A stretch of 64,000 bases of DNA, taken from positions 1-64,000 of the forward strand of contig NZ_JAFAGT010000069.1 of NCBI RefSeq assembly GCF_019237615.1. The letters run 5' to 3'. A program made the translations under genes and the position numbers. The DNA comes from Roseateles sp. Its GTDB lineage: Bacteria; Pseudomonadota; Gammaproteobacteria; Burkholderiales; Burkholderiaceae_C. The notes under the pieces were generated by a model that had not been told where the DNA came from, searched no databases, and was given only the letters and a program-made list of their open reading frames with translations. Shown here piece by piece: positions 45,670 to 64,000 of the stretch. Position 1 is the stretch's first letter; every line of letters begins with the position of its first letter.

Positions 45670-46224
45670 TCACTGCGCCGGCGCGAACAAGGCGTCGACG
45701 CTGGGCGTGCGCGGGCTCAGCGCATCGCGGATGGCCAAGCCGGGGGCCAGGAAGTCCGTGTCCTTCTTACCGCTGGTGGGCGAGGTGTGGAAGGCGATGA
45801 CCATGGCTACCGGCAGATAGTTGCCCTTGACGTCCTTCAGCGGCAGCACCGTCGACACCTTCTTCTGGTAGTCCGGCGTTCCCCACTTCGACTCGACCTG
45901 GCTGACGCCCTTCTTCAGCGTGATGACGTCACCCGGCGATGATTGGTTGCCGATGCGGTCCGGGAACGAGCCGGCGATCATCGTGTAGACCTCCTTCTCG
46001 CCGGGCGGGGTGGCGTGCATCGTGATGCTCATGATGTCGGGTCGGCTGGCGATCAGCTCGTCGACGAGCACCTGCGCCACGATCTTCTGCTTCGGACCTA
46101 CCCAGTTCTTGGGCGTCTGCGGCGTGGACGGTGCGCGCGGGATCTCCTGCGCATGGACCGCTGCGGCGGTGCACATCGCCAGCAGCAGAGTGGCGGTGGG
46201 TACGAATTTCCTGATGATGCTCAT
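45670..46224 (-). CDS. Small secreted protein, same family, copy B
   Basis: Signal peptide MSIIRKFVPTATLLLAMCTAAAVHA; ATPPGEKEVYTMIAGSFPDRIGNQSSPGDVITLKKGV. Confidence 0.7.
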   Translation of the reverse strand: MSIIRKFVPTATLLLAMCTAAAVHAQEIPRAPSTPQTPKNWVGPKQKIVAQVLVDELIASRPDIMSITMHATPPGEKEVYTMIAGSFPDRIGNQSSPGDVITLKKGVSQVESKWGTPDYQKKVSTVLPLKDVKGNYLPVAMVIAFHTSPTSGKKDTDFLAPGLAIRDALSPRTPSVDALFAPAQ

Positions 46225-46275
46225 GGTTTGTCTCCGTCGAAGGCATTGAAGGGAGGTATGCGGTCTGGATTCTGG

Positions 46276-46357: not shown

Positions 46358-47719
46358 ATGAAATCGATAGGCAGTCGCATCGCACTTGGGTACGCGCTCA
46401 GCTTGACCGGCGCCCTGATCGTCCTGTTCTTTGCGGGCCACTACCTGCTGGAGCGTTACCTGATCCGCCAGCTCGACAAGTTGACGGAGGCGCAGTTCAA
46501 GCATCTGGCGGCGACGCTGGGGCGCGACTATGCGACCTTGACACCCCATGTCATCGATGAGCGCATCCGCGAGGCGACCGAATCGGCCTCCCTGATGTTC
46601 TACGTGGACATGCACGGGCCGATGACGAACCGATTCTTCAAGTCGCACAACCTTCGCGGGCTCACCATCCCGGACCTCATCGGACAGAAAACGTATTCAA
46701 TCGCCGTCGATGGCATTGGCGAGGTGCGCGTAGGCGAGTATGTGCTGCAGCCCTTCGACGTCCTGATCGCCACGCCGCTGGCACCCGTGCGCGACCTGAT
46801 GGCGGGCTACCGGCGCGTCTTCTTCGGCCTGCTTGGCGCCGCACTCTTGCTTAGCGCCCTCGTCGGCTTCGGCCTCAGCGAAGTGATCCTCAAGCCGGTG
46901 CGCGTGATGCAGGCCACCGCGATACGCATTCGCTCTGACAACCTCAGCGAACGCATCCCGGTCGCCGACGTGAGCGACGAGCTGTCGCAGCTCGCGAGCT
47001 TCCTCAACCAGATGTTCGACCGGCTGGAGGCATCTTTCTCGGAAGTCCGCCATTTCGCGGCCGAAGCCTCGCACGAGCTGAAGACACCTCTGTCCCTGGT
47101 ACGGCTTCACCTGGAGCGCTTGCTGATGGACGACGCCTTGAGTCCCGCGCACAAAGATTCGGTGATGGTGCAGCTCGAAGAGATTGGCCGTGTCAACCGA
47201 ATCATCGACGAGCTGTTGTTCCTGTCGCGAGCCGATTCCGGCGCGGTTGTGCTCGACATGGAGTCGCTGCAGCCCGAGCGCCTGCTCGCCAGCTTCGCAC
47301 AGGACGCGGCAGTGCTCGCCGAACACGGCGGCAAGCGTTTCGAATGGTCCCATCATGGCGTAGGCACCGTGCTCGTGGACGACGAGCGCATCCGCCAGGT
47401 GCTGCTCAACGTGCTGACAAATGCGCTCAACGTGTCCCCGCCAGGCGGCCTGGTAAGCCTGGCGTCGACGCTCTCCGACGAGTTCTGGCGCATCAGCATC
47501 GTCGATGGCGGACCGGGGCTCGACCCGGAGGCGTGCGAGCGAGTCTTCAACCGCTTCGTACGGCTCGACCCGAGCCGCGGCGACTCGCGCGGCAGCGGCC
47601 TGGGTCTGCCGATTTCGCGCAGCATCGCAACGATGCACAAGGGCCGCATCTGGGCAACCAGCAGCGACGTCGGACGTGGCCTGCGCGTCGTCATCGAGAT
47701 CCCGACGTCCGCGGCTTAG
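46358..47719 (+). CDS. Sensor histidine kinase (HAMP/HisKA/HATPase), no adjacent response regulator
   Basis: Two TMs; HFAAEASHELKTPLSLVRLHLERLL; SRGSGLGLPISRSIATMHKG. Confidence 0.9.
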   Translation: MKSIGSRIALGYALSLTGALIVLFFAGHYLLERYLIRQLDKLTEAQFKHLAATLGRDYATLTPHVIDERIREATESASLMFYVDMHGPMTNRFFKSHNLRGLTIPDLIGQKTYSIAVDGIGEVRVGEYVLQPFDVLIATPLAPVRDLMAGYRRVFFGLLGAALLLSALVGFGLSEVILKPVRVMQATAIRIRSDNLSERIPVADVSDELSQLASFLNQMFDRLEASFSEVRHFAAEASHELKTPLSLVRLHLERLLMDDALSPAHKDSVMVQLEEIGRVNRIIDELLFLSRADSGAVVLDMESLQPERLLASFAQDAAVLAEHGGKRFEWSHHGVGTVLVDDERIRQVLLNVLTNALNVSPPGGLVSLASTLSDEFWRISIVDGGPGLDPEACERVFNRFVRLDPSRGDSRGSGLGLPISRSIATMHKGRIWATSSDVGRGLRVVIEIPTSAA

Positions 47720-47856: not shown

Positions 47857-48858
47857 ATGAACGTCAAACACAAACTTCTTCTGTGCGCCAGCCTGGTCAG
47901 CGCACTGATGGCCACTGCACCTGCGGCCCACGCCGAGAAGATCACTCTGATGGTCGGTGGCTACGAGAAGATCATCTACCTGCCTGCCAAACTGGCAGAG
48001 CGCCTGGGCTACTTCAAGGAAGAAGGCCTGGACGTCGAGTTGCTGAACGAGGCCTCCGGGGTCGATGCAGAAAACGAGCTTCTCATCGGCGCCGTGCAGG
48101 GGGTGGTCGGCTTCTACGACCACTGCATCGACATGCAGGCCAAGGGCAAGCACATCCAGTCCGTCGTGCAGTTCAGCCACGCGCCCGGCGAGGTCGAGCT
48201 GGTTTCGAGCAAGCACCCGCAGGTCAAGAGCATGGCCGACCTGAAGGGCAAGACGATGGGCGTCACCGGCCTCGGCTCGTCCACCAACTTCCTGACGCAG
48301 TTCCTGATGGTCAAGGCCGGCGTCAACATTGGCGAGTTCACCTCGCTGCCGGTGGGCGCGGGCACCACCTTCATCGCCGCGATGCAGCAGGACAAGATCC
48401 AGGCTGGAATGACCACCGAGCCCACGATTTCTCGCCTCCTCAAGACCGGCGAGGCGCGAGTACTGGTGGACCTGCGCACGCTGGACAAAACCCGGGCCGC
48501 GCTGGGCGGCACCTATCCGGCTGCTTCGCTCTACATGGCCAACGCCTGGGTCGAGAAGAACAAGCCCACGGTGCAGAAGCTGGCGAACGCCTTCGTGAAG
48601 ACGCTGCGCTACATCAACACCCACAGCGCCGCCGAAATCGCATCCAAGATGCCCAAGGACTTCATGGTCGGCGACGAGGCGGCCTATGTGAAGGCGCTCG
48701 ATGAAGGCAAAGGCATGTTCACCGCCGACGGCGTGATGCCTCACGGGGGCCCCGAGACGGTACTGTCCGTGCTCGGCGCGTTCTCCAAGAACGTCAAGGG
48801 CAAGACGATCGACCTGTCCAAGACCTACACGACCGAGTTCGTGAAGAAGGCGAAGTGA
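47857..48858 (+). CDS. NMT1/SsuA-type ABC transporter substrate-binding protein
   Basis: Signal peptide; LMVGGYEKIIYLPAKLAERLGYFKEEGLDVELL; LKGKTMGVTGLGSSTNFLTQFLM. Confidence 0.88.
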   Translation: MNVKHKLLLCASLVSALMATAPAAHAEKITLMVGGYEKIIYLPAKLAERLGYFKEEGLDVELLNEASGVDAENELLIGAVQGVVGFYDHCIDMQAKGKHIQSVVQFSHAPGEVELVSSKHPQVKSMADLKGKTMGVTGLGSSTNFLTQFLMVKAGVNIGEFTSLPVGAGTTFIAAMQQDKIQAGMTTEPTISRLLKTGEARVLVDLRTLDKTRAALGGTYPAASLYMANAWVEKNKPTVQKLANAFVKTLRYINTHSAAEIASKMPKDFMVGDEAAYVKALDEGKGMFTADGVMPHGGPETVLSVLGAFSKNVKGKTIDLSKTYTTEFVKKAK

Positions 48859-48860
48859 GC

Positions 48861-49688
48861 ATGAGCGCCGCAGCAGACAACAGCAGCCCGGCGATCGAGC
48901 TCGTCAACGTCACGCGGCGTTTCACGACTCAGGACGGCAAGTCGATGACCGCGCTGCGCGACTTCACGATGACCGTGGAACGCGGAGAGTTCGTCGCCGT
49001 GGTCGGCCCGACCGGCTGCGGCAAGTCCACCACGCTCAACCTCATCACCGGACTGGCCAAGCCCTCGGCGGGCGAAGTGCGGCTGTTCGGCGGGCCGGTG
49101 GACGGAATCGACCCACGCATCGGCTTCGCATTCCAGACGGACGCGCTGTTCCCGTGGCGCAGCGTCATCGACAACGTCGTCGCTGGCCCGCTGTTCCGTG
49201 GCATGGCGAAAGATGAGGCTTACGAGAACGCACGCCACTGGTTGGCGCGCGTCAACCTCTCCGGCCACGAGACCAAGTTCCCGCACCAGCTCTCCGGCGG
49301 CATGCGCAAGCGCGTCTCGCTGGCCCAGACCTTCATCAACGGGCCACAGATCCTGCTGATGGACGAGCCCTTCTCGGCGCTGGACGTGCAGACCCGCGTG
49401 CTGATGCACGACGAGTTGCTGCGCCTATGGTCGCAGTCGCGCGCGTCCGTCGTGTTCGTGACTCACGATCTGGAAGAGGCCATTGCGTTGGCCGACAAGG
49501 TCTATGTGCTGACCTCGGGGCCAGCCACCGTGAAGTCGATCTATCCCATCGACATCCCGCGGCCGCGGGTCGCCAGTGAGATCCGCTACGAGCAGAGGTT
49601 CATCGACATCTCGCACACCATCTGGAACGACCTGCGCGCCGAGGTTCTGCGCGGCGCCTCGCGTGACGAAGCTCGCGCCGCAGCATGA
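48861..49688 (+). CDS. ABC transporter ATP-binding protein (Ssu/Tau/Nrt type)
   Basis: Walker A GPTGCGKST; signature LSGGMRKRVSLAQ; Walker B ILLMDEPFSALD. Confidence 0.95.
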   Translation: MSAAADNSSPAIELVNVTRRFTTQDGKSMTALRDFTMTVERGEFVAVVGPTGCGKSTTLNLITGLAKPSAGEVRLFGGPVDGIDPRIGFAFQTDALFPWRSVIDNVVAGPLFRGMAKDEAYENARHWLARVNLSGHETKFPHQLSGGMRKRVSLAQTFINGPQILLMDEPFSALDVQTRVLMHDELLRLWSQSRASVVFVTHDLEEAIALADKVYVLTSGPATVKSIYPIDIPRPRVASEIRYEQRFIDISHTIWNDLRAEVLRGASRDEARAAA

Positions 49689-50566
49689 ACGACACCACCA
49701 TGAACACCACAACCGCCGCCGCGCAAGCCCGCGGCACCTCCGAGGCCGAGATCGAGGCGGCAGCCGCGCGCGCCGCCGTCAAACGCCGCCGCACCGTCTA
49801 CTTCTGGCGCTACTTCATCCTGGTCGTCTTCCTGGGAGGCTGGGAACTGTTCTCGAGAACCCAGTTGATCGACGAATTCTTCTTCTCCAAGCCCTCCGAC
49901 ATCATGTCCCGGCTCTACACCTGGGTCACGGAGGGCACCGCTGAGGGCTCGCTCTGGTATCACCTGTGGGTGACGATGGAGGAGTCCATCCTGGGCTTCG
50001 CCGTCGGCTCGCTGGCCGGCATCCTCGCGGGCATCACGCTCGGCCGCAACCACATGCTGGCTGATGTGTTTTCAATCTACATCAAGCTCATCAACTCCGT
50101 GCCTCGCGTGGTGCTGGCGCCGATCTTCATCATGATCTTCGGGCTGGGACTCACGTCCAAGGTCGCGCTCTCCTTCGTGATGGTGTTCTTCGTCGTCTTT
50201 TCCAACGCCTTCCAGGGCGTGCGCGAAGCCGACAGGAACCTGCTGGCCAACGCGCAGATCCTCGGCGCCAAGGGTTGGCAGCTGACGCGCTCCGTCGTCA
50301 TCCCGTCGGCGATGAGCTGGATCTTCGCGTCTCTGCATGTCAGCTTCGGCTTCGCCATCGTCGGCGCCATCGTCGGCGAGTTCGTCGGCGCACGCTACGG
50401 CATCGGCCTGCTGATCAACATCGCCAAGGGCTCGTTCGACGCGGCCGGAATGTACGCGGCCATCGTCATCATCATGGTCGTCGCCCTCGCGGCCGAGTAC
50501 CTGATGACGCTGGTGGAGAACCGCCTGGCCAAGTGGCGCCCGGCGCCGACGCACGACTCGAACTGA
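49685..50566 (+). CDS. ABC transporter permease (Ssu/Tau/Nrt type)
   Basis: NAFQGVREADRNLLANAQILGAKGWQLTRSVVIPSAMSWIFASLHVSFGFAIVGAIVGEFVGA EAA-loop region; ATGA overlap with ATPase gene. Confidence 0.93.
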   Translation: MNDTTMNTTTAAAQARGTSEAEIEAAAARAAVKRRRTVYFWRYFILVVFLGGWELFSRTQLIDEFFFSKPSDIMSRLYTWVTEGTAEGSLWYHLWVTMEESILGFAVGSLAGILAGITLGRNHMLADVFSIYIKLINSVPRVVLAPIFIMIFGLGLTSKVALSFVMVFFVVFSNAFQGVREADRNLLANAQILGAKGWQLTRSVVIPSAMSWIFASLHVSFGFAIVGAIVGEFVGARYGIGLLINIAKGSFDAAGMYAAIVIIMVVALAAEYLMTLVENRLAKWRPAPTHDSN

Positions 50567-50591: not shown

Positions 50592-51461
50592 ATGAACAAG
50601 AGCCCCTTCATGGCGGCGGCTCTGCTGGCCGCCGCGTTTGCGGCACAGGCGCAGCAGCCGGTGCCGGTCAAGACCTACGCGCAAGAGCTTGTGGACCGCA
50701 TCGTGGCCCAGCACCCCGACCTGCGCGCCGCAGTGATGCACGTCACGCCGCCCAAGGCTGTCGAAAACATCATCGTCGCGTCCAGCATCGGGCGCATCGG
50801 CGTCCCGGCGGACGCGAACGACCTCGACGTCATCGCTACCAGCACGACGCACGTGGCGATGGATCACGGGAGGAAACGCATCGAGGTAGAGCTGCCGCTG
50901 CGCGACGTCGGCGGCGCTACCGTGGGCGCCTTGGGCCTGGTCTGGCGGCTGCCGGTGGGCGGTTCGCGCGCCGAGTTCGAACGCAACGCGACAGTGATTC
51001 GCGACACGGTGTCGCGCCGCATTCTGAACGCAGCCAACCTGATGGACCCCTATCCCTACGAACCCCTGGTGACGACCAAGTCGCGTGCGCAGACGCTGGT
51101 CGACGAGGCCCTGCTGCGCCACCCTGAGGTAACCTTGCTGGCGCTGCGCGCACACAGCCGCGGCGAGCTCGTGCTACTGGGTTCCACCTTCGGCCGTCAC
51201 GGCAAGAAGGCCGATGCCGACGACGCCAAGGTGATGAGCAGCAGGGAACCCAGTACCGGCATCTACTCGGGCGGCAGGCGCTTCGGCGTCGACATGGCGC
51301 TGCACGACCGCAACGGCGCGCTGATCGGCACGATGAACGTCGGCTACGCCTACTCCGGCAAGGAGGACACCAGGGCGCTGACCGCCCGCGCCGTCGCGCT
51401 ACGGGACGAACTGCAGTCGCGCATCGACCCCGCCCAGCCGCTTGACGAGATCGATCCATGA
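50592..51461 (+). CDS. Secreted protein with two tandem domains related to the 45114/45670 family
   Basis: VDRIVAQHPDLRAAVMHVTPPKAVENIIVASSIGRIG... and VDEALLRHPEVTLLALRAHSRGELVLLGSTFGRHG... internal repeat. Confidence 0.7.
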   Translation: MNKSPFMAAALLAAAFAAQAQQPVPVKTYAQELVDRIVAQHPDLRAAVMHVTPPKAVENIIVASSIGRIGVPADANDLDVIATSTTHVAMDHGRKRIEVELPLRDVGGATVGALGLVWRLPVGGSRAEFERNATVIRDTVSRRILNAANLMDPYPYEPLVTTKSRAQTLVDEALLRHPEVTLLALRAHSRGELVLLGSTFGRHGKKADADDAKVMSSREPSTGIYSGGRRFGVDMALHDRNGALIGTMNVGYAYSGKEDTRALTARAVALRDELQSRIDPAQPLDEIDP

Positions 51462-52918
51462 GGATCGCGTTGGTCTCCATGTGCGCGGCGCTCCTGGCCG
51501 GTGGTGCGCCGGCGGCGACACCCGCGGCCGGCAAGCTCCCCGTCTCCAGCGTCGGCGCCGCAACGATGGCTCCGATGATGGACGCGTGGATGCAGGCTCT
51601 CGCGCAGCAGCATGCCGCCCCTGTTCGCGGCCCGCGTTGGCAGCATGTGGACGACGCCGCCGCCATCGGCGCGCTGATGTTCGAGCGCGCCGACCTGGCC
51701 CCGATGACGCGCGCGCCGCTGGCCATCGAGCTGGCACCTTATGCCCACCAGTTCCACGGCGACATGATGAAGTCGCCGGTACTGGCGCGCGTCGCGCTGC
51801 GCAATGGGCAGCCGGTCTTCCTCGCATTCAACAAGCGCCCCGACACGCCCGTTCCGCCGGCCGTGGACGGCTTCGTGCGCTTTGCGCTCAGCCCGGCAGG
51901 CCAGGCGCTGGCCGCCGGGCAGCCGGGCATTGCGCCGCTGCCGGCCGGCGAAGCTGACGCCGAGCTCGCCAAGCTGGCCGGCTACCGCGCCGCGCTCGAC
52001 CCGAAGCTACCGGTCTACAGGGCCGGGACAGTCGTGCACGGCGAGCTGCGCAGCGTCGGCAGCGACGGCATGAAGTCGCTGATGGACGGCTGGCTGCGCA
52101 GCTTCCGCACGCTGCAGCCCGGCGTCCGCCCCGGCGACCGTTGGGAGCATCTCGGCACGTTGAACGGTTTCCATGCGCTGATGGCCGACGAAACCGATAT
52201 CGCGCCGATGGGGCGCGAGCTCTGGCCCGACGAAGCCGCGGCGTTTGCGACGCTGCGGGACGGACGCGTGCCGCTGGAGATCCGCGTGGCGCGCGGCGGT
52301 TTCAACACCCAGCAGCGCACCACGGCGCAGGCAGTCTTCGTGAACGCGGCCAACCCCATCCAGCAGTTGACGCTGCCGCAGCTGGCCGCCATCTTCGGCA
52401 AGTCGCCGACGATCACACGCTGGGGCCAGCTGGGTCTCACCGGCGAGTGGGCCGACAAGCCCATCACGCTGGACGTACCGCCGCGCGTGGCGCCCAACGC
52501 GATGTCGATGCAGATGATGGCGCTAAACGGCGGGCCGTGGGCCGAGAGCGTGCACGAGGCCTCCGTCGCCGACACCGCCAAGGCTATCGCCGCCGACACA
52601 GGTGCCGTGGGCTACGGGGGCTTCGAGGACGGTGGCCCGGGCCTGAGGGCAGTGCCGCTGGCGCGCGACGCGGCCAGCCCTGCAGTGGCCGGCACGCCCG
52701 AGAGCGCCGCCACTGGCCGCTACCCGCTGACGCGCTACATGTACATCCGCCTCGACCGCAGGCCCGGCCAGCCCGTCCCGCCAGTGGTCAGGGAATTCCT
52801 GCGCTACGTCTTGAGCCGCCAGGGCCAGGAGCCGATCCCGTATTCCGGCTACTACCCGTTGAGCGCGCAGGAGGTCGCCGCGGAACTCGCCAAGCTCGAC
52901 GGCGTCGCGGCTGAATGA
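51458..52918 (+). CDS. PstS-like binding protein with an extra degenerate N-terminal PstS-like segment
   Basis: C-terminal full domain (LTLPQLAAIFGKSPTITRWGQLGLTGEWADKPITL; YPLTRYMYIRLDRRPGQPVPPVVREFLRYVLSRQGQ); N-terminal half repeats start and end segments only. Confidence 0.8.
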   Translation: MRIALVSMCAALLAGGAPAATPAAGKLPVSSVGAATMAPMMDAWMQALAQQHAAPVRGPRWQHVDDAAAIGALMFERADLAPMTRAPLAIELAPYAHQFHGDMMKSPVLARVALRNGQPVFLAFNKRPDTPVPPAVDGFVRFALSPAGQALAAGQPGIAPLPAGEADAELAKLAGYRAALDPKLPVYRAGTVVHGELRSVGSDGMKSLMDGWLRSFRTLQPGVRPGDRWEHLGTLNGFHALMADETDIAPMGRELWPDEAAAFATLRDGRVPLEIRVARGGFNTQQRTTAQAVFVNAANPIQQLTLPQLAAIFGKSPTITRWGQLGLTGEWADKPITLDVPPRVAPNAMSMQMMALNGGPWAESVHEASVADTAKAIAADTGAVGYGGFEDGGPGLRAVPLARDAASPAVAGTPESAATGRYPLTRYMYIRLDRRPGQPVPPVVREFLRYVLSRQGQEPIPYSGYYPLSAQEVAAELAKLDGVAAE

Positions 52919-52962
52919 TTTTTCAGAAGGGGTTCAGGATGACTTCAGGGTCGCGGCATAAG
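52911..52962 (+). promoter_or_regulatory. 11-bp-phased regulator element/promoter, copy 2
   Basis: CTGAA 52911, TTCAG 52922, TTCAG 52933, TTCAG 52944, CATAAG 52957. Confidence 0.75.
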
Positions 52963-53043
52963 TTTTGAGTCGGGAGTTGACCTGACTCAGCTTGCGTAAT
53001 CGAGGCACCAGTTCTCGAAACTATTACTACTAGGAGACAGACA

Positions 53044-55359
53044 GTGAACAAAACAACTCTTGCGACCGCCCTGGTCGCCTGTTTTCCGTTTCTGGGCTCG
53101 CCCTGCGCGCATGCTCAGGCGAACACAGGCCCAGGCCCGGCCCAGGATGAGTCCGCCGCCACGGCGGAGGCGCCCGTCGAGACGCCACAAACCGTCGAAC
53201 GGGTTGTCGTGCGGGGTTCATACCTGAGCGCCGGCTCGCAGAGCGCGATGAAGGGGAATGTCGCGGTCCGCGACACACCGTTCTCGGTTTCGCCCTACCA
53301 GGAGTCCTTCCTGAAGGCGATCGAGTCGACCAACATCGCCGACCTCTACAACTACATGACCGGCGTGAAGCGCAACGGCAACACCGGCTACGACCTGAAC
53401 ATCCGCGGCTTCAAGACCTCGGGCAACGACCGCAACGCGATCATGGTGGACGGCATGCCTGGCCTGGGCGTTCGCTTCGGCTCACCGCCGACGATCGGTG
53501 TAGAGCGGGTCGAGGTTGTCAAGGGGCCGGCCTCTGTGCTCTACGGGAACGCCCAGCCCGGCGGTTTCGTCAACATGATCAGCAAAAAGCCCAAGTCCGC
53601 ATGGGCCGGTTCGGCGGAGGTGCGCGCCACTGGCTATAGCGGCGCCGGTCTGCGTCTCGGCGACGCCGCCGGCTATGACGCCGCCATCGATCTGACGGGA
53701 CCGCTCGACAAGGAGGGCAACTACCTGTTCCGCGTGGTCGCGCAGACCACCGACAAGAACACCTTTCGCACCGACGCCTACAACAAGGGCACCTACTTCG
53801 CCCCCAGCTTCACCTGGGTCATCGACGAGGCGACGAGTCTGAGCGCGGCGGTTGAACTGCGCCAGACGACCTCCGCCTACGACACCTTCCTGGTGGCGCC
53901 GAACCGTGACATCCAACTCGCGTCACCCATCCGCACCCGGTACCAGGAACCGACCGACACGCAGAAGGAGGCCGGCAGGACGCTGACCCTGTCCTTCAAC
54001 CACTCCTTCGACAACCGCTTCGAGTTGAATGCCAAGGTCCGCAGCGTGCGTCAGCACGACGACGCATCGGGTTTCGACGTCAACAGCATACTCACTGCCG
54101 CCAACTCGAGCTGCCAGACCCACAACGGCCCCGTTACAGGCGCCAACCTCTGCCTCAGCCGGCGCGCCCGCGGCCAGCACAACGAGAGGCAGTACGACTT
54201 CTTCGACGTCAACGTCGGTGGCCCTTTCAAGACAGGCGACATCGGTCACAAGATGCTTCTGGGCATCAACGGCGGGCGCGAGACTGCGGACCTTAACCGC
54301 CTGCAGTTCAATGTGCTGACGGCCGCACAGAACGGCAATATCTCGATCTACGACCCGGTCTATGGGGTCGTCGCTCCCCTCAGCTCCTATTCGGCGGGCC
54401 TGCCGAAAGATCTGACCCATCGCGCGACGGTTTCGCGCAGCCTAGGCGTCTACGCGAGCGACCTGATCACGCTGAGCGAAGACTGGAAAGCCATGGCCGG
54501 CCTGCGCTGGGCGAATGAGAAGCAGGACGCTGAGGAACTGCGTGTCCCCGGAACGCTGCCGTCGAGCAAGAGCGACGTCAAGGTGCTGCCGATGTTCGGT
54601 GTGCTGTACCAGCCTACCAAGCAGTGGACGCTCTACACCAGCTATGCGACCTCGATGGTGCCCGTACCGGCTGCGACCCAGGACATTTACGGCGCCAATC
54701 CCTTCCAGCCCGAACAAGCCAAGCAGATCGAGGCCGGGGTCAAGGCCGAGTTGTTCGAGGGCCGGCTGAACGCGACCCTCGCCGCCTTCCGGATCAGGAA
54801 GAACGACGCGATCAACAGCTTTGCCTGCAACACCGTGCCTGGCGCGACGGCGACCGGCACCTGCTCCACGCAAATCGGCTCCGAAGAGGCCAAAGGCATC
54901 GAGTTCGAGCTGAACGCGCGGCCGACCAGGGACTGGCAGTTCACGCTGGGCTATGCCTTCTCTGATGCGAAGGTGACGGCGTCCAAGGACGCAGCCCAGG
55001 TGGGCGCACGCCTGACCAACAACGCGAAGAACAACCTCAACATCTGGAACCGCTACGAGTTCGGCGGCGCGCTGGATGGCTTCGCACTTGGCGCCGGACT
55101 GGTCTACGTGGGTGAGCGCATGGGATTCATCCCGACCACGGCGGCCAACGGCACGGTGGACAGCCGCCTGATGCCGCTGCCGAGCTACACGGTGCTCGAT
55201 CTCGGCGCTTACTACAACGTCGGCCGGTATTCCTTCTCCGCCAAGGTTGGTAACGTCACCGGCAAGACCTACTACGAGAGCGCCGGCTTCACCGGGGACA
55301 TCAATATCGTCCCAGGCAGCCCGCGCAATGTCGCTGTTTCGATGAGGGTGCACTTCTGA
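53044..55359 (+). CDS. TonB-dependent siderophore-type receptor
   Basis: Signal peptide; DTPFSVSPYQESFLKAIESTNIADLYNYMTGVKRNGNTGYDLNIRGFKTSGNDRNAIMVDGMPGLG; C-terminal NVAVSMRVHF. Confidence 0.93.
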   Translation: MNKTTLATALVACFPFLGSPCAHAQANTGPGPAQDESAATAEAPVETPQTVERVVVRGSYLSAGSQSAMKGNVAVRDTPFSVSPYQESFLKAIESTNIADLYNYMTGVKRNGNTGYDLNIRGFKTSGNDRNAIMVDGMPGLGVRFGSPPTIGVERVEVVKGPASVLYGNAQPGGFVNMISKKPKSAWAGSAEVRATGYSGAGLRLGDAAGYDAAIDLTGPLDKEGNYLFRVVAQTTDKNTFRTDAYNKGTYFAPSFTWVIDEATSLSAAVELRQTTSAYDTFLVAPNRDIQLASPIRTRYQEPTDTQKEAGRTLTLSFNHSFDNRFELNAKVRSVRQHDDASGFDVNSILTAANSSCQTHNGPVTGANLCLSRRARGQHNERQYDFFDVNVGGPFKTGDIGHKMLLGINGGRETADLNRLQFNVLTAAQNGNISIYDPVYGVVAPLSSYSAGLPKDLTHRATVSRSLGVYASDLITLSEDWKAMAGLRWANEKQDAEELRVPGTLPSSKSDVKVLPMFGVLYQPTKQWTLYTSYATSMVPVPAATQDIYGANPFQPEQAKQIEAGVKAELFEGRLNATLAAFRIRKNDAINSFACNTVPGATATGTCSTQIGSEEAKGIEFELNARPTRDWQFTLGYAFSDAKVTASKDAAQVGARLTNNAKNNLNIWNRYEFGGALDGFALGAGLVYVGERMGFIPTTAANGTVDSRLMPLPSYTVLDLGAYYNVGRYSFSAKVGNVTGKTYYESAGFTGDINIVPGSPRNVAVSMRVHF

Positions 55360-56489
55360 TGCGTAGAAAACAACTGACCTGCGCGGTCGCCATCATGCTG
55401 TTCGCCAGCGCCGGCGCGCGCGCGCAATCCATGGTCGAGTGGGTCGTCCCGACCACCCCGACCAATGTCAAGCAGACCGAGGAGCAAGCCGAGGAGGGTC
55501 GGCAGAAAGGCCGCGAACTGCCCGCCCCCGAGATCTTGCAGCCGATGCTGGACGCGCAGTTGCCCAGCTACCAGCCGCGCCGCGACATCAAGATCAGTGG
55601 CACGTTCAAGGGCGCGGCGTCCGACGTGCTCGTCGTACTGGCGCAGAAGTGGATGGCGAAGTTCAAGGCCTACTACCCCAACGCCCACCTCTCCATTGCC
55701 CCGCCCTACGCGGGCAGCCTGGGCGCCATCGAGCTCATCAAGGGCGACCTGGACTTCGTCTTCGTCTCGCGCGAGCTCAAGCCCGAAGACATCAGCAAGT
55801 TCAAGACCAAGTTCGGCTACGAACCGCTGAGCGTGCCCATCAGCGGCGGCTCGTATCGACACTACGGCGCACTGGATGCCGTCGGCTTCTTCGTCAACAA
55901 GGCCAACCCCATCGAGAAGATCACATTCCAGCAGCTCGATGCCATGTACTCGACGACCCGCCACCGCGGCGGCCAGGCGATCAGCAAATGGGGTGACCTG
56001 GGTCTTACGGGCGAATGGGCTGACAAGCCCATCCACCTCTATGGCATCAAGCCCTGGAACGGCTTCGAGGAATTCGTGCGCCAGCGCGTGCTCAGTACCG
56101 ATGGCAAACGCGGCGAGTGGCGCGACGACATCCGTTTCGAGAAGCTCGTCTTCCCGATGGCCAAGGACATCGCCGCCGACCCAGAGGGCATCGGCTACGC
56201 CGGCATGGCCTACACGGATGCGCCGGTCAAGCTGATCCCCCTGGTCGAGAAGGCCGGCGACCCGCCGCAGGCACCCACCTACGAGAACGTCGCGTTGGCC
56301 TCCTATCCACTCAGCCGCCTCATCTACTTCAACACCAACAAGGCGCCCGGCAAGCCGCTGAATCCGGTGCTTGAGGAGTTCCTGCGCTTCGTTCTGAGCC
56401 GTGAAGGCCAGCAGGTCGTGCTCGAGCACGCGCGCTACATCCCGCTGCGGGCCGGTCAGGCCAGCCAGGCGAAGGATCTGCTGAAGTGA
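55359..56489 (+). CDS. PstS-like substrate-binding protein
   Basis: FQQLDAMYSTTRHRGGQAISKWGDLGLTGEWADKPIHLYGIKPWNG; YENVALASYPLSRLIYFNTNKAPGKPLNPVLEEFLRFVLSREGQ. Confidence 0.85.
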   Translation: MRRKQLTCAVAIMLFASAGARAQSMVEWVVPTTPTNVKQTEEQAEEGRQKGRELPAPEILQPMLDAQLPSYQPRRDIKISGTFKGAASDVLVVLAQKWMAKFKAYYPNAHLSIAPPYAGSLGAIELIKGDLDFVFVSRELKPEDISKFKTKFGYEPLSVPISGGSYRHYGALDAVGFFVNKANPIEKITFQQLDAMYSTTRHRGGQAISKWGDLGLTGEWADKPIHLYGIKPWNGFEEFVRQRVLSTDGKRGEWRDDIRFEKLVFPMAKDIAADPEGIGYAGMAYTDAPVKLIPLVEKAGDPPQAPTYENVALASYPLSRLIYFNTNKAPGKPLNPVLEEFLRFVLSREGQQVVLEHARYIPLRAGQASQAKDLLK

Positions 56490-57622
56490 AGCGCGCCGGG
56501 GCCGCCGCTGCCCTGACGGTGGCGACCTGGCTCGCACCCTTCGGCGCGGTGGCCGATCCGCCGGAGTGGGCTCAGGCCGGGCGCCCTGCCCCGCCGCCAG
56601 AGTTCCTCCAGCCGACGCTGGACGCCGGGCTCGCACCCTACCGCACCAGCGGCGCGCACGGTCGGCTCGAAGGCTGCGCACCGCCCATCGTGGCAGCGCT
56701 CGCGGCGCAGTGGATGCGGGCGTTCCAGGCACGCGAGCCCGGCGTGCGGGTCGAGTTGTCGCCGCCCTATCTGCCGCCGCAGGGTGCGCTCAACCCCCGT
56801 CTGCGCGACTTCCTGGAGGGGCATCTCGACTTCGCCTTCCTGACGCGCGAGATGGCGGCCTCCGACGTGGCGCAGTTCCGCCGCGTGCACGGATTTGACC
56901 CGCTGCTGCTGCCGGTGAGCGGGGGCAGCTTCCGGCATTTCGGCTTCGTCGATGCGGTCGCCGTCGTCGTCCATCGCAACAACCCGCTGCAAGGCCTGAG
57001 CCTGGCGCAGCTCGACGCCATCTTTTCTCGCACCCGCCATCGCGGGCAGGCGGCACCGGCGGTGACCTGGGGCGAGCTTGGTCTTCCCGAATGGACCGGC
57101 CGGCCGGTACACGTCGTCGGCACCGGCGCCTGGGTCGGCGAGGAGTCTGCCCGCGCAACCTTCTTCCGCGAGCGCGTGATGGACGGCGCCGCACAGCGGG
57201 GCGAATGGCGCGACGACGGCCGTCCGCCCGATGCGGGTGACGCCGTCGTCACCGAGGCGGTGGCAGCCGACCCGCTGGCAATCGGGTTCACGGCGATGGG
57301 GCATCTCACGCCTGGCGTTCGTGCGATTGCGATCGCAGTGCAACCCGACTCGCCCCTCATCGAGCCGAGCTACGAAAACGTGGCGCGCGCGACCTATCCG
57401 CTAAGCCGGGTCTTCTACCTGGCCCTGGCGCGCAAGCCGGGCCACACGCTACGTCCCGCACTCGAGGCCTGGACGCGCTTCCTGGTGAGCAAGGACGGGC
57501 AGGCCCTGGTGCTGGCGCAGGGCGTCTTCCTGCCGTTGCGCGAGTTCCAGGCCAGCCAGGCGCTGGAAAAGCTGTCGCAATTTTCAGGTGGCGTTCAGCC
57601 TGGATTCGGCTTCGCACCCTAA
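56486..57622 (+). CDS. PstS-like substrate-binding protein
   Basis: Same motifs (LAQLDAIFSRTRHRG...WGELGLPEWTGRPVHVVG; YENVARATYPLSRVFYLALARKPGH); ATGA overlap with previous gene. Confidence 0.85.
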   Translation: MKRAGAAAALTVATWLAPFGAVADPPEWAQAGRPAPPPEFLQPTLDAGLAPYRTSGAHGRLEGCAPPIVAALAAQWMRAFQAREPGVRVELSPPYLPPQGALNPRLRDFLEGHLDFAFLTREMAASDVAQFRRVHGFDPLLLPVSGGSFRHFGFVDAVAVVVHRNNPLQGLSLAQLDAIFSRTRHRGQAAPAVTWGELGLPEWTGRPVHVVGTGAWVGEESARATFFRERVMDGAAQRGEWRDDGRPPDAGDAVVTEAVAADPLAIGFTAMGHLTPGVRAIAIAVQPDSPLIEPSYENVARATYPLSRVFYLALARKPGHTLRPALEAWTRFLVSKDGQALVLAQGVFLPLREFQASQALEKLSQFSGGVQPGFGFAP

Positions 57623-57623
57623 G
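57572..57623 (+). promoter_or_regulatory. 11-bp-phased regulator element/promoter, copy 3 (begins within end of previous CDS)
   Basis: CTGTC 57572, TTCAG 57583, TTCAG 57594, TTCGG 57605, CCTAAG 57618. Confidence 0.7.
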
Positions 57624-57678
57624 GTTCGCCGGGCCCTGGCTCTCGCCGAGAGCCGGTGAATTACTGATGGAGACATTG

Positions 57679-58731
57679 ATGAAGACCCATGCTTTCAACA
57701 TCGCCGTCGCTGCCGCGCTGCTCGCATTCGCCGCCGGCCCCGTCCGGGCGCTGAAGTACGCAGCCCCCGAGCACTCGCTCAAGGCCGACCCGTCGATCCC
57801 CAAGTGGAACCCCGGTCCCGTCGCCAGCGAGCCCGAGGAGGAACTGACCATCGTCGGCGCCGACATCATGGACGAGATGGTGCTGGGCTGGACCAAGATC
57901 TACCGCAAGCAGTACCCGCGCCTTTCGCTGACGATGGACCTGCGCGCCTCGGGCGCCGGCAGCCCCGGTCTGGTGTCGGGCCAGGGCCACCTGGCCCCGG
58001 TCGGCCGCGAGATGTTCCCGAAGGAGCGCCAGGCCTTCATCGACAAATTCGGCTACGAGCCGCTGGAGATCAAGGTCGCGACCGGCAGCGTCGGCTCGCT
58101 CGGCAAGACGGCCAGCAGCGTCATCCTCGTCGACAAGGACAACCCGATCGACTGCCTGAGCCTGCCGCAGCTCGACGCAATCTACTCCAAGACGCGCAAG
58201 CTCGGCCACAAGGAGGTCAACACCTGGGGCGACCTTGGTGCGACAGGTGCCTGGGCGACCAAGCCCATCCACCTGTACGGTCTGAAGGCGGTCAACGGTA
58301 TCGAGCAGTACTTCAAGGCTGTCGCGATGGACGGCGGCGAGTACAAGGACAACATCCAGTTCGTCAAGGGCAAGGGCTTCACGCACGCCTTCACCGTCGC
58401 CGCCGAAGACATGGCCAAGAACCCTGGCGGCCTGACCTACGCGCTGCTTGCCAATGTCACGCCCAACGTCAAGGTGCTGAACCTGTCGTCGAAGCAGGGC
58501 GGCACCTGCTATGCGCCGACGGTCGAGAACGTCTACCAGCACAAGTACCCGTTCAGCCGCTACGTCTACATCTACGTCAACAAAGCCCCGGGCAAGCCGC
58601 TGGAGCCCAAGGTCAAGGAGTTCCTCAAACTCGTGCTGAGCCAGGAGGGCCAGCAGGTGGTGGCGGATGAGCGCGTCTTCATCCCGCTGCTGCCCGAGGT
58701 GGCGAAGGAAGAGCTGAAGAAGCTGGACTGA
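57679..58731 (+). CDS. PstS-like substrate-binding protein
   Basis: LPQLDAIYSKTRKLGHKEVNTWGDLGATGAWATKPIHLYGLKAVNGIEQYF; YENV-equivalent VENVYQHKYPFSRYVYIYVNKAPGKPLEPKVKEFLKLVLSQEGQ; RBS GGAGAC favours 57679 over 57667. Confidence 0.85.
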   Translation: MKTHAFNIAVAAALLAFAAGPVRALKYAAPEHSLKADPSIPKWNPGPVASEPEEELTIVGADIMDEMVLGWTKIYRKQYPRLSLTMDLRASGAGSPGLVSGQGHLAPVGREMFPKERQAFIDKFGYEPLEIKVATGSVGSLGKTASSVILVDKDNPIDCLSLPQLDAIYSKTRKLGHKEVNTWGDLGATGAWATKPIHLYGLKAVNGIEQYFKAVAMDGGEYKDNIQFVKGKGFTHAFTVAAEDMAKNPGGLTYALLANVTPNVKVLNLSSKQGGTCYAPTVENVYQHKYPFSRYVYIYVNKAPGKPLEPKVKEFLKLVLSQEGQQVVADERVFIPLLPEVAKEELKKLD

Positions 58732-58745
58732 CTCGTAGCCTGAAG

Positions 58746-59723
58746 ATGGACAGGCGAAGCCTGCTTGCGGCCTTGTCGGCCGCTCTCGCGAGGGCCCCGG
58801 CGATGGCGGAGCAGTTGCTGCCACCCCCGGGTGCGCCCTATCTGAACGCCGACGGCGCGATCCGCATCGTCGGCTACAACGATATGCAGGAGATGCTGGA
58901 CGCGATCACCGCGCTGTTCCGGCGCATGCATTCCGGCTTCAAGTTCGAGCTGATTCTCAAAGGCACGCGAACAGCGCCCGACGCGCTGGCCCGCGGTCTG
59001 TCGCTGCTGGCGCCCATGGGTGCGGAGTTCTCCGAGGCCGAGCTGGCCGGCTACGCTCGCATCACTGGGGGGGACCTGCCGCTGCCCTTTCATGTCGCGC
59101 ACGATTCGCTGAATCCGGCGGCGCTGTCGGCGCCGCTGGGCGTCTTCGTCGATGCGCGCAACCCGGTGAGCACTCTCAGCATGGCTCAGCTCGCACGGGT
59201 GTTCACGGGGGGCGTCATGCATTGGGGCCAGCTCGGAGTCGGAGGTGAGTGGGCCAGGCGCCCCATCCACCTCTGCGGCATGGCGCCCGCGACGGCGCTG
59301 GGCCGGCTGATGCTGCACCGGCTCGGCGGCGAAGCCTTCGCACCGGGCTTTGCGGGATATGCACAGTCGCGCGATGCGGTCGCCTGTGTCGCGGCCAACC
59401 CGCTGGCGATCGGCTTCGCGTCGCTGAACCGCGGCGTTCCTGGCGTGCGCGCCCTGCCGCTGTCGGCGCACGACGGCAAGCCCGCCTTTGCCGGCACGCG
59501 CGACGATCTCGTCTCCGGCCGCTATCCGTTGGATCGCCACCTGCTGATTTATCTGCGCACCGACCCGCTGACGAAGCGCATCGACCCGGTGGCGCGCGAG
59601 TTGCTGCGCCTGATGCTGTCCGCCGAAGGACAGCAGGCCATCGCCGCCGGCACACTCGGCTACCTGCCCTTGAGCGAACCCGAGCGCATGGCGGAACTGA
59701 AGAGGCTGGCTGCGCTGGAATGA
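58746..59723 (+). CDS. PstS-like substrate-binding protein
   Basis: MAQLARVFTGGVMHWGQLGVGGEWARRPIHLCG; SGRYPLDRHLLIYLRTDPLTKRIDPVARELLRLMLSAEGQQAI. Confidence 0.82.
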   Translation: MDRRSLLAALSAALARAPAMAEQLLPPPGAPYLNADGAIRIVGYNDMQEMLDAITALFRRMHSGFKFELILKGTRTAPDALARGLSLLAPMGAEFSEAELAGYARITGGDLPLPFHVAHDSLNPAALSAPLGVFVDARNPVSTLSMAQLARVFTGGVMHWGQLGVGGEWARRPIHLCGMAPATALGRLMLHRLGGEAFAPGFAGYAQSRDAVACVAANPLAIGFASLNRGVPGVRALPLSAHDGKPAFAGTRDDLVSGRYPLDRHLLIYLRTDPLTKRIDPVARELLRLMLSAEGQQAIAAGTLGYLPLSEPERMAELKRLAALE

Positions 59724-59831: not shown

Positions 59832-60608
59832 TTGCGCAACCTCGCTGTTCTCATTCTTTGCGTCGCATTGGCCGCGGGCCCCTTCACCGCCCGCGCCGAG
59901 CTCAGCGACGAGATTCAGGTCTACACCGACGACATCAATGCACCCGGCCAGAAGGGCCTGGAGTTGCACGTCAATACGACGCCGCGCGGCCGCAGGACAC
60001 CCGACTATCCCGGCGAGGCCGTGCCCTACCACGGACTACGAGTCACACCTGAGTTCTCGCTGGGGCTGACGCCTACGCTGGAAGCGGGCCTCTACCTACC
60101 CACCAACCGCGACGCCAACGGTCATTTCAGCCTCGCCGGCATGAAGCTGCGCATGAAATGGCTGCCACTGAAGGCCGAGGAAGGCGGCAGCGGCTTGTTT
60201 GCCGGGGCCAACGTCGAGCTGTCACGCCTGCAGCAGCGTTTCTCGGAATCTCGCAACAGTGCCGAGCTGCGCCTGATTGGCGGCTGGCGCGGCGCCGACT
60301 GGCTGCTGGCGGCCAACCCGGTCATCGGCGTGAACCTGTCGCCCGGCTACCGCAGCGGCGGCGCCGACCTGTCGCTGGGGCTGAAGGCGGCGCGCAGCGT
60401 CGCCAACAAGCTCGCGCTCGGGCTGGAGTACTACGTCGACATCGGCACGACCCAGGGCAGGCTGCCGGCTGCACAACAGCCTCGCAGCCTCTACCTCGCC
60501 ATGGACGGAGAGATCCACGGCTGGGACATCAACGCCGGCATTGGCCATGGCCTCAACGGCGCGACCGACCGGCTGACGCTCAAGCTCATCGTCGGCTTCC
60601 CACTCTGA
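59832..60608 (+). CDS. Exported, probable outer-membrane beta-barrel protein
   Basis: TTG start after GGAGAC; signal peptide ending FTARA; alternating amphipathic strands, terminal LKLIVGFPL. Confidence 0.65.
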   Translation: MRNLAVLILCVALAAGPFTARAELSDEIQVYTDDINAPGQKGLELHVNTTPRGRRTPDYPGEAVPYHGLRVTPEFSLGLTPTLEAGLYLPTNRDANGHFSLAGMKLRMKWLPLKAEEGGSGLFAGANVELSRLQQRFSESRNSAELRLIGGWRGADWLLAANPVIGVNLSPGYRSGGADLSLGLKAARSVANKLALGLEYYVDIGTTQGRLPAAQQPRSLYLAMDGEIHGWDINAGIGHGLNGATDRLTLKLIVGFPL

Positions 60609-60637: not shown

Positions 60638-61726
60638 ATGTTGCGTTCACGTTTCCTCCTGCTCATGCTGTGCGCCCTCTCGGCCACCGGCGGCGCGCTG
60701 GCCCAGTCCTCCGCCGACCTCGTGTCGGCCGCGCGGCGCGAAGGTCGCGTCGTCATCTACAGCGTGCTGAGCAACAAGGCCGCTGCCCCGCTGGTAGCCG
60801 GCTTCAAGGCGCTCTACCCAGGCATCGAAGTGGACTACGACGGCGAGGGCGGCTCCAACGAGGTCGATGAGCGCTTCCGCGGCGAGGTGGCGGCGGGCAA
60901 GCCATCGGCCGACGTGATGTGGAGCTCGGCGATGGACCTGCAGATGAAGCTGGTCGTCGACGGCTACGCGGCCCATTACGAAAGCCCCGAGCGTGGCGCC
61001 CTGGCCGCGGGCCTGAACTTCGAGGACCGCGCCTGGGGCACGACGCGCGAGCCTGTCGTGTTCGCCTACAACCGCCGCCTGCTGCCCATTGACGCGGTAC
61101 CGCGGGACCACGCCGCGCTGGTCCGCGCGCTGCGCGACCCCGCCGGCCCACTGCGCGACAAGGTGACGGCCTTCGACATCGAGAAAAGCGGTGTCGGCTT
61201 CATGTTCGCGGCCCAGGACGCGGCCCAGAACCCCGCCTTCGACGAGCTGCTGTTGGCCCTGGGCGCGGGAGGCCTGAAGCAGTCTCCCGGCACCGGCGCG
61301 ATGCTGGCCGACATCCACGCGGGCCGCAGCCTGCTGGGCTACAACATCATGGGCGCCTACGCGCTGTCGCGCTCCCGCAAGGACCTGCCCGACCTCGCCG
61401 TCGTGATGCCGAGCGACTACACGCTGGTACTGTCGCGCGTGATGCTCGTCAGCCTCCACGCGCCGCACCCGAATGCCGCGCGCCTGTGGGCGGACTACCT
61501 GCTGTCGCGGCACGGCCAGCAGATCGTCGCCGACGCACTGGAGCTGTTCTCGGTGCGCTCCGACGTGAGTGGAGAGCACAGCGGCGCGGCCCTCGATGCC
61601 CGCCTTGGCGCCAACGGGCGCCTCATCTCCGTCGACACCCGCCTGGCCGACACGCTAGTGCCCGCGCGCCACGACGCGCTGGTGCAGCGCTGGCGCACCA
61701 GTCTGCAACGCGGGGCCGCGCAATGA
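60638..61726 (+). CDS. Periplasmic binding protein, ferric-iron/FutA-AfuA-like
   Basis: Signal peptide; LVSAARREGRVVIYSVLSNKAAAPLVAGFKALYPGIEVDYDGEGG; GKPSADVMWSSAMDLQMKLV. Confidence 0.82.
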   Translation: MLRSRFLLLMLCALSATGGALAQSSADLVSAARREGRVVIYSVLSNKAAAPLVAGFKALYPGIEVDYDGEGGSNEVDERFRGEVAAGKPSADVMWSSAMDLQMKLVVDGYAAHYESPERGALAAGLNFEDRAWGTTREPVVFAYNRRLLPIDAVPRDHAALVRALRDPAGPLRDKVTAFDIEKSGVGFMFAAQDAAQNPAFDELLLALGAGGLKQSPGTGAMLADIHAGRSLLGYNIMGAYALSRSRKDLPDLAVVMPSDYTLVLSRVMLVSLHAPHPNAARLWADYLLSRHGQQIVADALELFSVRSDVSGEHSGAALDARLGANGRLISVDTRLADTLVPARHDALVQRWRTSLQRGAAQ

Positions 61727-62748
61727 AGGCCGCCGCGCTCTCGCGCCGCCGCCTCGTCGCCGCCGCGCTGGCCTGCCACGCCGCCGGCCTTGCGCGGGCC
61801 ACGGCTGCGCTCGTCCCGCTGACGCTGATGGTCAAGGCCGACGGTCTTGACAAGCCACACTACGCGCCGATCACGCTGGCCAAGGCGCTGGGCTTCTATA
61901 CCCTGGCGGGGTTGGACGTGAGGCTGGTCAATGAGGTCGAAGGCGTCAACGCCGACGCCGAGCTGGCCGCAGGCCGCGTGCAGGCCGTGGCCGGCTTCTA
62001 CGACAAGCTCATCACCGACCTCGCCAGACCAGACGCGCCACGCGGCCTCAACATCGCAACGCTGGCCGACACGCCCGGCTACGTGCTGCTGGCGAGCACG
62101 CGGCTGGCGGACTTGCCCCCCGGGCCGGCCGCGCTGCGCGGCCGCCGCGTCGCCGTCACTGGGCTCGGCAAGATCGCCCACCTGCTCGTGAACCAGGTGG
62201 CCGCCACCGCTGGGCTGGCGACAAATGACTTCCAGGCCTTGGCCCTAGGTGGGCGCGTCGCTGCCGCGCTGGCCTCCGGCGAGGCCGATTTCGGCATCTT
62301 CTGGGGCCAGGAGGCGCTCAAGGCCGTCGACGCCGGCCATGCGCGCATCCACTGTGACCTGATCTCGCGCGACGCGACGCTGCCGCTGTTCGGCGGACTG
62401 TTTGCCTCCACCTGTGTCTACGTCGACCCGGTGCGCCAGCCGACCGACGCGGAGGCAGTGCGCCGCTTGGCGGGGGCTTTGTCGCGGACCCTGGCCTGGA
62501 TGCAGGCGAATGGCCCGGTCGAGGCCGCCAATCGCTTGCCGGCGAACTATGCGCGCGGCGACGCCGAGTTGCACCGGCGCGCGCTAGCGCTGGCCTGGCC
62601 ATCCTTCACCGCTGACGGCCGCCTGCAGCCGGGGACGGCAGAGAACATGCTGCGCGTGCTGTCCGCTTGGCGGCCCGAACTTCGCCGCAGCGGGCTGGAC
62701 CCGGCCTCCAGCTTCAGCAACCGCTTCATCGACCGGGCGCAGGGGTAG
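61723..62748 (+). CDS. NMT1/THI5-like substrate-binding protein, paralog of 47857 gene
   Basis: LMVKADGLDKPHYAPITLAKALGFYTLAGLDVRLVNEVEGVNADAELAAGRVQAVAGFYDKLI aligns with 47857 product; ATGA overlap. Confidence 0.82.
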   Translation: MKAAALSRRRLVAAALACHAAGLARATAALVPLTLMVKADGLDKPHYAPITLAKALGFYTLAGLDVRLVNEVEGVNADAELAAGRVQAVAGFYDKLITDLARPDAPRGLNIATLADTPGYVLLASTRLADLPPGPAALRGRRVAVTGLGKIAHLLVNQVAATAGLATNDFQALALGGRVAAALASGEADFGIFWGQEALKAVDAGHARIHCDLISRDATLPLFGGLFASTCVYVDPVRQPTDAEAVRRLAGALSRTLAWMQANGPVEAANRLPANYARGDAELHRRALALAWPSFTADGRLQPGTAENMLRVLSAWRPELRRSGLDPASSFSNRFIDRAQG

Positions 62749-62793: not shown

Positions 62794-64000
62794 ATGAAAG
62801 TCAACCTGCGCAGCCCGCTGCTGTTCGTGCATCGCTGGACGGGCATGACGCTCGGCCTGCTGTTCCTGTTCCTGGCGCTCACCGGATTGACGCTCGTCTT
62901 TCGCGGTGAGCTCGGGGGCTGGATGGACACAAGCCTCCACGGCGACGTCGAATGCCGGGCCCCGCAGCCGCTGGACGCACTGATCGAAAAGGCGCGCGCC
63001 GTGCGCCCCGACGCCGAGGTCCAGGCCATCCGTGTCAGGGACGACGGCCAGTCGGTGATTGTGCGCATGTCCGACCGTCACGACCTGTATGTGGGCCCCT
63101 GTTCCGGCAGGGTGATGGACCGCAATCGCTGGGCTGGCGTGTTCGGCCTGCTGGAGCAGTTGCACCGTTTCCGCTTCCTGGAGAGCGCCGACGCGGGCAA
63201 CTTCATCACCGGCGGTGCGGCGATGGCGATGCTGTTCGCAATGGGCTTCGGCGGCCTCTTCGTGCTATGGCCTTCGTCCTGGCGCCAGCTCAAGACCGTG
63301 ACGACGCCTCGCCCACACCTGCGCGGCCGCGCACTGGATCTCAACCTGCATCGCAGCATCGGTTTCTATACGGCCACGGTCATCGTCATCGTGTCGATCA
63401 CGGCGCTGCCGATGGCCTTCAAGTGGACTCGCACCGTCATCAACGTCGCCGTCGGCTCGCCGACGGAGAAACCACCCAAGCTGCGTTCCACGCCCGTCGC
63501 GGGTGCCCAGGTGCTGGATGCCGGCGCACTGTGGGAGCAGGTCCGACCGCTGCTCGAGCACCCCGACACGACGCCGCACGAGATCTCCATCGAGCTGCCC
63601 AGGAAGCCGAACGACGCGGCCGTGATCTACGCGGTCGAGATCGGCGCCGCCCATCCGAATGCGCGCAGCTACTACTACCTCGACGCCTACAGCGGCAAGC
63701 TGCTGCGCGCCGAACCCTATGCCACAAGCCCGCTGGGCAACCGCATCTACCGCTACACCTCGTCGCTGCATTCCGGTGAAGTCGGCGGCTTGCCGGTGCA
63801 ACTGCTGTTCTTCACCGGCATCGCCGGCGTGCCGGTGCTCGCCTACACAGGCCTACGTAGCTTCTTCCGCCGGCGGCGTCGCGTGGCCGCCGCGCCGCCG
63901 CCGCTGCGGTTACGTGTCGCCGAGATGCGCGACGTGGCCCAGGACATCCGCTGCTTCGTGCTCATCGCGATCGACGGCGGCAAGCTGCCGCCCTTCACGG
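62794..64000 (+). CDS. PepSY-associated TM protein, probable ferric/siderophore reductase; runs off the window end
   Basis: Manual translation from ATG 62794: MKVNLRSPLLFVHRWTGMTLGLLFLFLALTGLTLVFRGEL...; PepSY-TM helices and periplasmic domains; open to 64000, so absent from ORF track. Confidence 0.8.
   Translation, partial: MKVNLRSPLLFVHRWTGMTLGLLFLFLALTGLTLVFRGELGGWMDTSLHGDVECRAPQPLDALIEKARAVRPDAEVQAIRVRDDGQSVIVRMSDRHDLYVGPCSGRVMDRNRWAGVFGLLEQLHRFRFLESADAGNFITGGAAMAMLFAMGFGGLFVLWPSSWRQLKTVTTPRPHLRGRALDLNLHRSIGFYTATVIVIVSITALPMAFKWTRTVINVAVGSPTEKPPKLRSTPVAGAQVLDAGALWEQVRPLLEHPDTTPHEISIELPRKPNDAAVIYAVEIGAAHPNARSYYYLDAYSGKLLRAEPYATSPLGNRIYRYTSSLHSGEVGGLPVQLLFFTGIAGVPVLAYTGLRSFFRRRRRVAAAPPPLRLRVAEMRDVAQDIRCFVLIAIDGGKLPPFT

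Follow-up and report, generated by a model that had tools for sequence, protein, structure and literature searches.

In TonB-dependent siderophore systems such as FpvA with FpvG and FpvCDEF, and in those of the FoxA/FoxB type, the receptor works together with a PepSY reductase, periplasmic binding proteins and an ABC transporter. In Escherichia coli, the TonB receptor PqqU (YncD) is paired with the beta-propeller protein YncE, and the Bug/TctC proteins represent orphan substrate-binding proteins that have expanded without permeases of their own. The phosphate-binding protein PstS of the Pseudomonas aeruginosa type (PDB entries 4omb and 4pqj; family model TIGR02136) possesses a type II periplasmic binding protein (PBP) fold. 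The subject of the present analysis is a 64,000-nucleotide stretch from Roseateles sp. (assembly GCF_019237615.1, contig NZ_JAFAGT010000069.1, positions 1 to 64,000), which as a whole is referred to as the window, and in it five PstS-like proteins, A to E. These proteins descend from the Pseudomonas-type PstS family and appear to have been repurposed. Their genes belong to a rare and patchily distributed cluster that centres on a TonB receptor and seems not to have been described before. The cluster is probably a TonB-dependent acquisition island for a substrate other than phosphate, in which the re-tooled PstS proteins would act as periplasmic receptors.

P. aeruginosa-type PstS is the best match of A to E in both sequence and fold (27-38% identity), whereas A to E lack the phosphate-binding arginine and the SGT residues, contain a 9-residue insertion at the hinge, score below the family cut-off and are not linked to pstCAB. 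The components named above for the FpvA and FoxA systems recur in the island, which differs from them by its multiple PstS-derived binders, an ABC transporter of the Tau/Ssu type, receptor-borne Cache-like domains and a beta-propeller. With Bug/TctC it has in common the expansion of binding proteins without own permeases, and some related islands hold a TctC-like gene; its binders, however, are of another family, and their genes lie together in a single island that also encodes a TonB receptor. As in YncD/YncE, a TonB receptor is linked to a YVTN-type beta-propeller, which matches the YncE model weakly, but PstS-like and Cache-like proteins are not part of the YncD/YncE system.

All five open reading frames (ORFs) were recovered from the ORF list of the window where a first-pass annotation had placed them, each on the forward strand: A (51458..52918, 486 amino acids), B (55359..56489, 376 amino acids), C (56486..57622, 378 amino acids; the sister of B), D (57667..58731, 354 amino acids; the most widely conserved copy) and E (58746..59723, 325 amino acids). 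Each exceeds the Pfam cut-off for PF12849 (PBP_like_2), with E-values of 4.2e-17, 6.9e-21, 4.2e-16, 2.5e-17 and 1.7e-9 for A to E, respectively. The best curated match of all five is TIGR02136, that is PstS, at 70.8-138.3 bits under a cut-off of 206.6. Their mutual pairwise identity amounts to 23-39%, well beyond chance. Chance similarity is excluded by Pfam, by the tree and by the fold. The annotation had described a tandem without pstC, pstA or pstB; the PF12849 family and the absence of these three genes from the window hold, and the five genes are neighbours, but the run is broken by the gene of a 771-amino acid TonB receptor (53044-55359) between A and B. Similarly, the string WGDLGLTGEWADKPIHLYG, which had been taken as common to the five, is partly matched by A, C, D and E and occurs exactly in B only. 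Paralog A contains, in addition, a partial domain copy at its N-terminus; this fragment, a second and weak domain match, resembles lobe I of a binding protein without lobe II.

For comparison of the binding pockets, PstS 4omb of P. aeruginosa with the motif GRNSVSGT served as the reference, being the nearest solved relative. In the alignment, the phosphate-binding motif R-x3-SGT is replaced in all five window proteins, namely by VPPRVAPN in A (52475..52498), GIKPWNGF in B (56043..56066), GTGAWVGE in C (57119..57142), GLKAVNGI in D (58279..58302) and GMAPATAL in E (59277..59300). The inserted hinge residues are RGGFNTQQR in A (52292..52318), GGSYRHYGA in B (55845..55871), GGSFRHFGF in C (56921..56947), TGSVGSLGK in D (58081..58107) and HDSLNPAAL in E (59100..59126). 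Among 33 orthologs of D, the residues G, L, K, N, G and I of the replacement motif and six of the nine hinge positions are invariant. Related array domains, 132 in number, never keep the phosphate arginine, and in 131 of them the hinge is longer by exactly nine residues. In genuine PstS controls, R, S, G and T are kept and the insertion is absent (5/5); the ten best non-array matches from the samples of class and phylum likewise have GRNSVSGT without insertion, and nine of them adjoin pstC. Judged from these alignments, the phosphate site of A to E is rebuilt and a 9-residue loop is added at the hinge beside the cleft.

In the phylogenetic tree, D (24 rows, support 100/100), A (11 rows, 100/100), E (12 rows, 100/98), B together with C (24 rows, 100/100; C rows by themselves 100/100) and a tandem-expansion group (23 rows, 100/100) form separate clades. 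The array rows fall apart from the genuine PstS group; support for this split (87/78), as for the deepest splits in general, is modest, and the tree is midpoint-rooted. The pocket strings follow the clades: TGSvGSLGK at the hinge and GLKxxNGIE are conserved within D, SGGsyRHfG and PWNGFEE within B, and A has a clade-specific pocket as well. Each of the paralog lines A, B/C, D and E is thus set apart by a supported clade and by a pocket motif conserved within it. The AlphaFold2 (AF2) model of D (pLDDT 93.2) finds PstS 4omb as its best Foldseek match (E 3.6e-35), and D is thereby assigned a PstS-like type II PBP fold, while for A, B, C and E this fold is assigned by Pfam and sequence. Two candidate interpretations were rejected: genuine PstS identity of A to E, by the sub-cut-off TIGR02136 score, the lost motif, the missing pst linkage and the tree position; and decay of the pockets, by the invariant clade-specific motifs.

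Permease genes of the pst type are located elsewhere in the genome. A contiguous pstS-pstC-pstA-pstB-phoU set is found on contig C66, where the PstC profile has its sole above-cut-off match in the genome and where PstS carries the E. coli-type motif RADGSGT. Gene content was compared across 28 related loci of at least 11 kb; pstC, pstA and pstB occur in none of them. The first-pass view that A to E do not serve plain phosphate import is thus supported, as they stand outside genuine PstS in the tree, have lost Arg and SGT, and are never found alongside pst permeases; the check by phylogeny and pst dependence, carried as far as sequence permits, did not refute it. The suggestion of different ligands for the individual copies would fit the clade-specific conserved pockets.

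The island extends from 44044 to beyond the end of the window. From 47857 to 65903 all genes are on a single strand, with no intergenic gap above 137 bases and with several neighbours overlapping by 4 bases. The receptor between A and B (53044..55359, forward strand) is of the siderophore type (TIGR01783, 279.9 bits versus a cut-off of 223.5; PF00593 and PF07715). Upstream of A, likewise on the forward strand, an ABC transporter is encoded by the genes of an NMT1/SsuA-type substrate-binding protein (47857..48858; PF09084, 1.4e-21; PDB 3qsl, 3.6e-57; orthologs 65-88%), a Tau/Ssu-type ATPase (48855..49688; orthologs 69-91%) and a TauC/SsuC-type permease (49685..50566; PF00528, 1.4e-26; orthologs 61-93%). 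They are preceded by a sensor histidine kinase of the heavy-metal-sensor type (46358..47719, forward strand) with HAMP, HisKA and HATPase domains and a sub-cut-off TIGR01386 score of 207.8 bits, whose 45-80% orthologs adjoin a response regulator in relatives; the partner regulator lies outside the window (L044:6184-6882, reverse strand). At the downstream end, a PepSY-TM/FAD/2Fe-2S reductase gene (62794..64000, forward strand) runs beyond the window; homologs of 35-45% are present in Ralstonia, that at L067 matching PepSY_TM (5.5e-50) and Fer2 (2e-12). At the opposite end, on the reverse strand, is the periplasmic YVTN-type propeller (44044..45081), which has propeller-type Pfam matches, is 69% identical to the propeller of the island in genome G117 and has counterparts in 18/28 relatives.

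Three periplasmic proteins of the island are Cache-like and match no Pfam family: the small cacheS (45114..45641, reverse strand), whose orthologs, 47-69% identical, adjoin D in relatives; a second small cacheS (45670..46227, reverse strand), with a 68% ortholog in Rhodospirillales (L083); and, as a paralog of the latter, the tandem protein cacheD (50592..51461, forward strand). The AF2 model of cacheD (pLDDT 91.6) contains a pair of alpha/beta units of the PAS/GAF/Cache type. The Cache profile gives a weak match to the sensor domains of CitA/DcuS (hhalign probability 73, versus 0.1 for PhoQ), from which the island proteins differ in being soluble or receptor-fused and not kinase-borne. In Ralstonia soli (L067:6855-9851) a TonB receptor is composed of a signal peptide, then a tandem Cache-like domain and then the plug, so that the Cache-like unit is physically tied to the import step; similar fusions are present in L050, L076 and L081. 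No description of this domain order was found in the literature searched.

A scan for D across named genomes, made with a three-sequence alignment, detected it at 60-90% identity in Ralstonia, Roseateles, Paraburkholderia, Burkholderia, Pandoraea, Polaromonas, Collimonas, Sphingomonas, Rudaea, other Proteobacteria and metagenome-assembled genomes (MAGs) of Eremiobacterota. The set that recurs in the 28 loci comprises Cache-like proteins (27), B (25), the response regulator (19), the TonB receptor (18), the NMT1 protein (18) and the propeller. The receptor type differs between lineages (TBDT53044 type versus L045b type) and the periplasmic set is constant. Within the family, 4 of 401 genomes contain the Cache-like marker, and within the genus 0 of 5 other genomes do; among 369 class and 399 phylum genomes sampled, matches to D above 42% identity are confined to the own genome; this patchy distribution fits horizontal spread. 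The largest expansion is that of G117 (L045 and L047; contigs C71 and C339), where 13 PstS-like matches are arranged in head-to-tail arrays, some copies being fused in pairs; TonB receptors and a response regulator are encoded on the same contig, and the pocket residues differ widely between copies. No description of this gene set was found in open-licence literature, which is weak evidence of absence.

A clue to the ligand comes from these relatives. A gene for handling citrate-type acids lies in or beside the island in 10/28 of them, by raw count. ATP-citrate-lyase-like genes are found at L071, where they are situated between D and E (11071-15096), and at L075, L076, L080, L082 and L094; hosts of the pair are Roseateles, Paraburkholderia (three loci) and Polaromonas, L094 being a short contig of G105. 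The beta gene contains a Pfam citrate-binding domain above cut-off. The alpha protein has CoA-ligase domains and, by Pfam, no citrate-synthase domain. A 2HCT carrier gene is present at L084, L085 and L088 (Rudaea, a MAG and Sphingomonas), a family without any match in 185 sampled genomes of the class, and a TctC-like gene at L088, L089 and L092 (two Sphingomonas and a MAG). Away from the island, one copy of the lyase pair adjoins a TRAP-like carrier (L109) and one a TctA-like carrier (L112), both assignments being made by eye. The lyase is not exclusive to the island, since it occurs in 5/151 family genomes, none of them among those with array matches.

From this set of genes we infer uptake as the direction of transport, as well as the handover steps, the reduction and the ligand in the following scenario. 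The TonB receptor would carry a scarce complex over the outer membrane, and in the periplasm the Cache-like proteins, either free or receptor-fused, together with the PstS-like proteins would bind the complex or parts of it, each copy with its own specificity. The PepSY ferredoxin-type reductase may free the metal by reducing it, import of the organic part would fall to the NMT1-type ABC transporter, and control of expression to the linked two-component system. As cargo, a citrate-type hydroxycarboxylate, free or as a metal complex, is put forward tentatively. Repurposed PstS proteins in a TonB-dependent island, with a citrate-type cargo as the most likely one, may well be the best explanation of the whole. 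Somewhat more speculative is the broader view of an undescribed, horizontally spread TonB system for hydroxycarboxylates or complexes of these with metals, with repeated re-tooling of the PstS fold into non-phosphate periplasmic receptors and with an outer-membrane receptor that can carry a citrate-sensor-like periplasmic domain.

Several points weigh against this explanation. The sequence match of the Cache-like protein to CitA is weak (PDB profile, E 0.15), and the residues that we take to be the citrate contacts of CitA are, by eye, not conserved. The family match of the receptor is siderophore-type and not citrate-specific, and the linkage count is a raw one, as mentioned. The own genome is devoid of a lyase ortholog and of 2HCT; the proposed ligand is therefore extrapolated from relatives and might be another one in this genome. 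Concerning the pocket, some serines are retained in B, and a SAR11 PstS binds phosphate with Pro at the Arg position (PMC12421899), so that loss of the arginine alone is no proof of lost phosphate binding; here, SGT is gone too.

The siderophore-type score of the receptor, the PepSY_TM reductase within the island and the swapping of receptor types around a constant periplasmic set would also suit uptake of xenosiderophores. The receptor would then import foreign ferric siderophores, the PstS-like proteins would bind siderophore or iron and the reductase would be a ferric reductase, the carboxylate genes being incidental or serving citrate-based siderophores. No iron permease of the FecCD/FepDG type was seen in the island, though, its ABC transporter being of the Tau/Ssu type, and the linkage to lyase, 2HCT and TctC stays unexplained unless the siderophore contains citrate; this alternative is considered rather unlikely.

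Buffering, relay or presentation of ligands had been proposed in the first-pass annotation, in which the conserved island of TonB receptor, ABC transporter and two-component system had gone unnoticed. Presentation to the sensor kinase is possible, because the pair of histidine kinase and response regulator belongs to the island, as it does in many relatives, and Cache-like domains are sensor folds. A main role of the PstS-like and Cache-like proteins in signalling ligands to the kinase, with transport as a secondary matter, is nevertheless improbable: the many binding proteins per kinase, up to the 13 matches of G117, go beyond the need of a sensor, and linkage of the transporter and receptor genes is about as frequent as that of the regulator.

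Scavenging of phosphate, organophosphate or arsenate, with the cargo being passed to the genuine PstCAB encoded on contig C66, would accord with the fold and ancestry of the proteins and with the tolerance of some PstS for loss of the arginine, but it is very unlikely in view of the additional loss of SGT, the conserved replacement motifs, the hinge insertion and the 28 related islands free of pst genes. Functionless, decaying PstS duplicates, to which the low mutual identity and the partial extra domain in A might point, are hardly credible given the intact ORFs, the 60-90% conservation of D across genera, the invariant pocket motifs and the conservation across phyla.

If the proposed TonB-dependent island with repurposed PstS proteins is real, it would be an additional route of TonB-dependent import, marked by a new family of periplasmic receptors, a receptor-Cache fusion and a striking expansion of binding proteins, whose ligand would be directly testable. 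Due to their PBP_like_2 domain and their resemblance to PstS, proteins such as A to E are easily annotated as phosphate-binding proteins, which can mislead the interpretation of phosphate physiology and of metagenomes.

Between E and the reductase gene, three further genes are located on the forward strand. They encode a conserved exported protein without Pfam match (59832..60608), which has 38-49% homologs in Ralstonia islands; an SBP_bac_1-type substrate-binding protein (60656..61726; PF01547, 5.5e-12), a similar-reading ORF adjoining an E-like gene in G105 (L049); and a second NMT1-type substrate-binding protein (61723..62748; PF09084, 1.2e-13). Among the relatives, the islands of Ralstonia and Collimonas contain a DUF347 repeat membrane protein (L067:13027-13962), and an exported family without Pfam or NCBIfam match (L067:15873-16820) is kept in those of Ralstonia, Collimonas and Phenylobacterium. 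Upstream of the island in the window, and apparently separate from it, another TonB receptor lies beside a CHASE8 hybrid histidine kinase (37079-39067 and 34591-36522).

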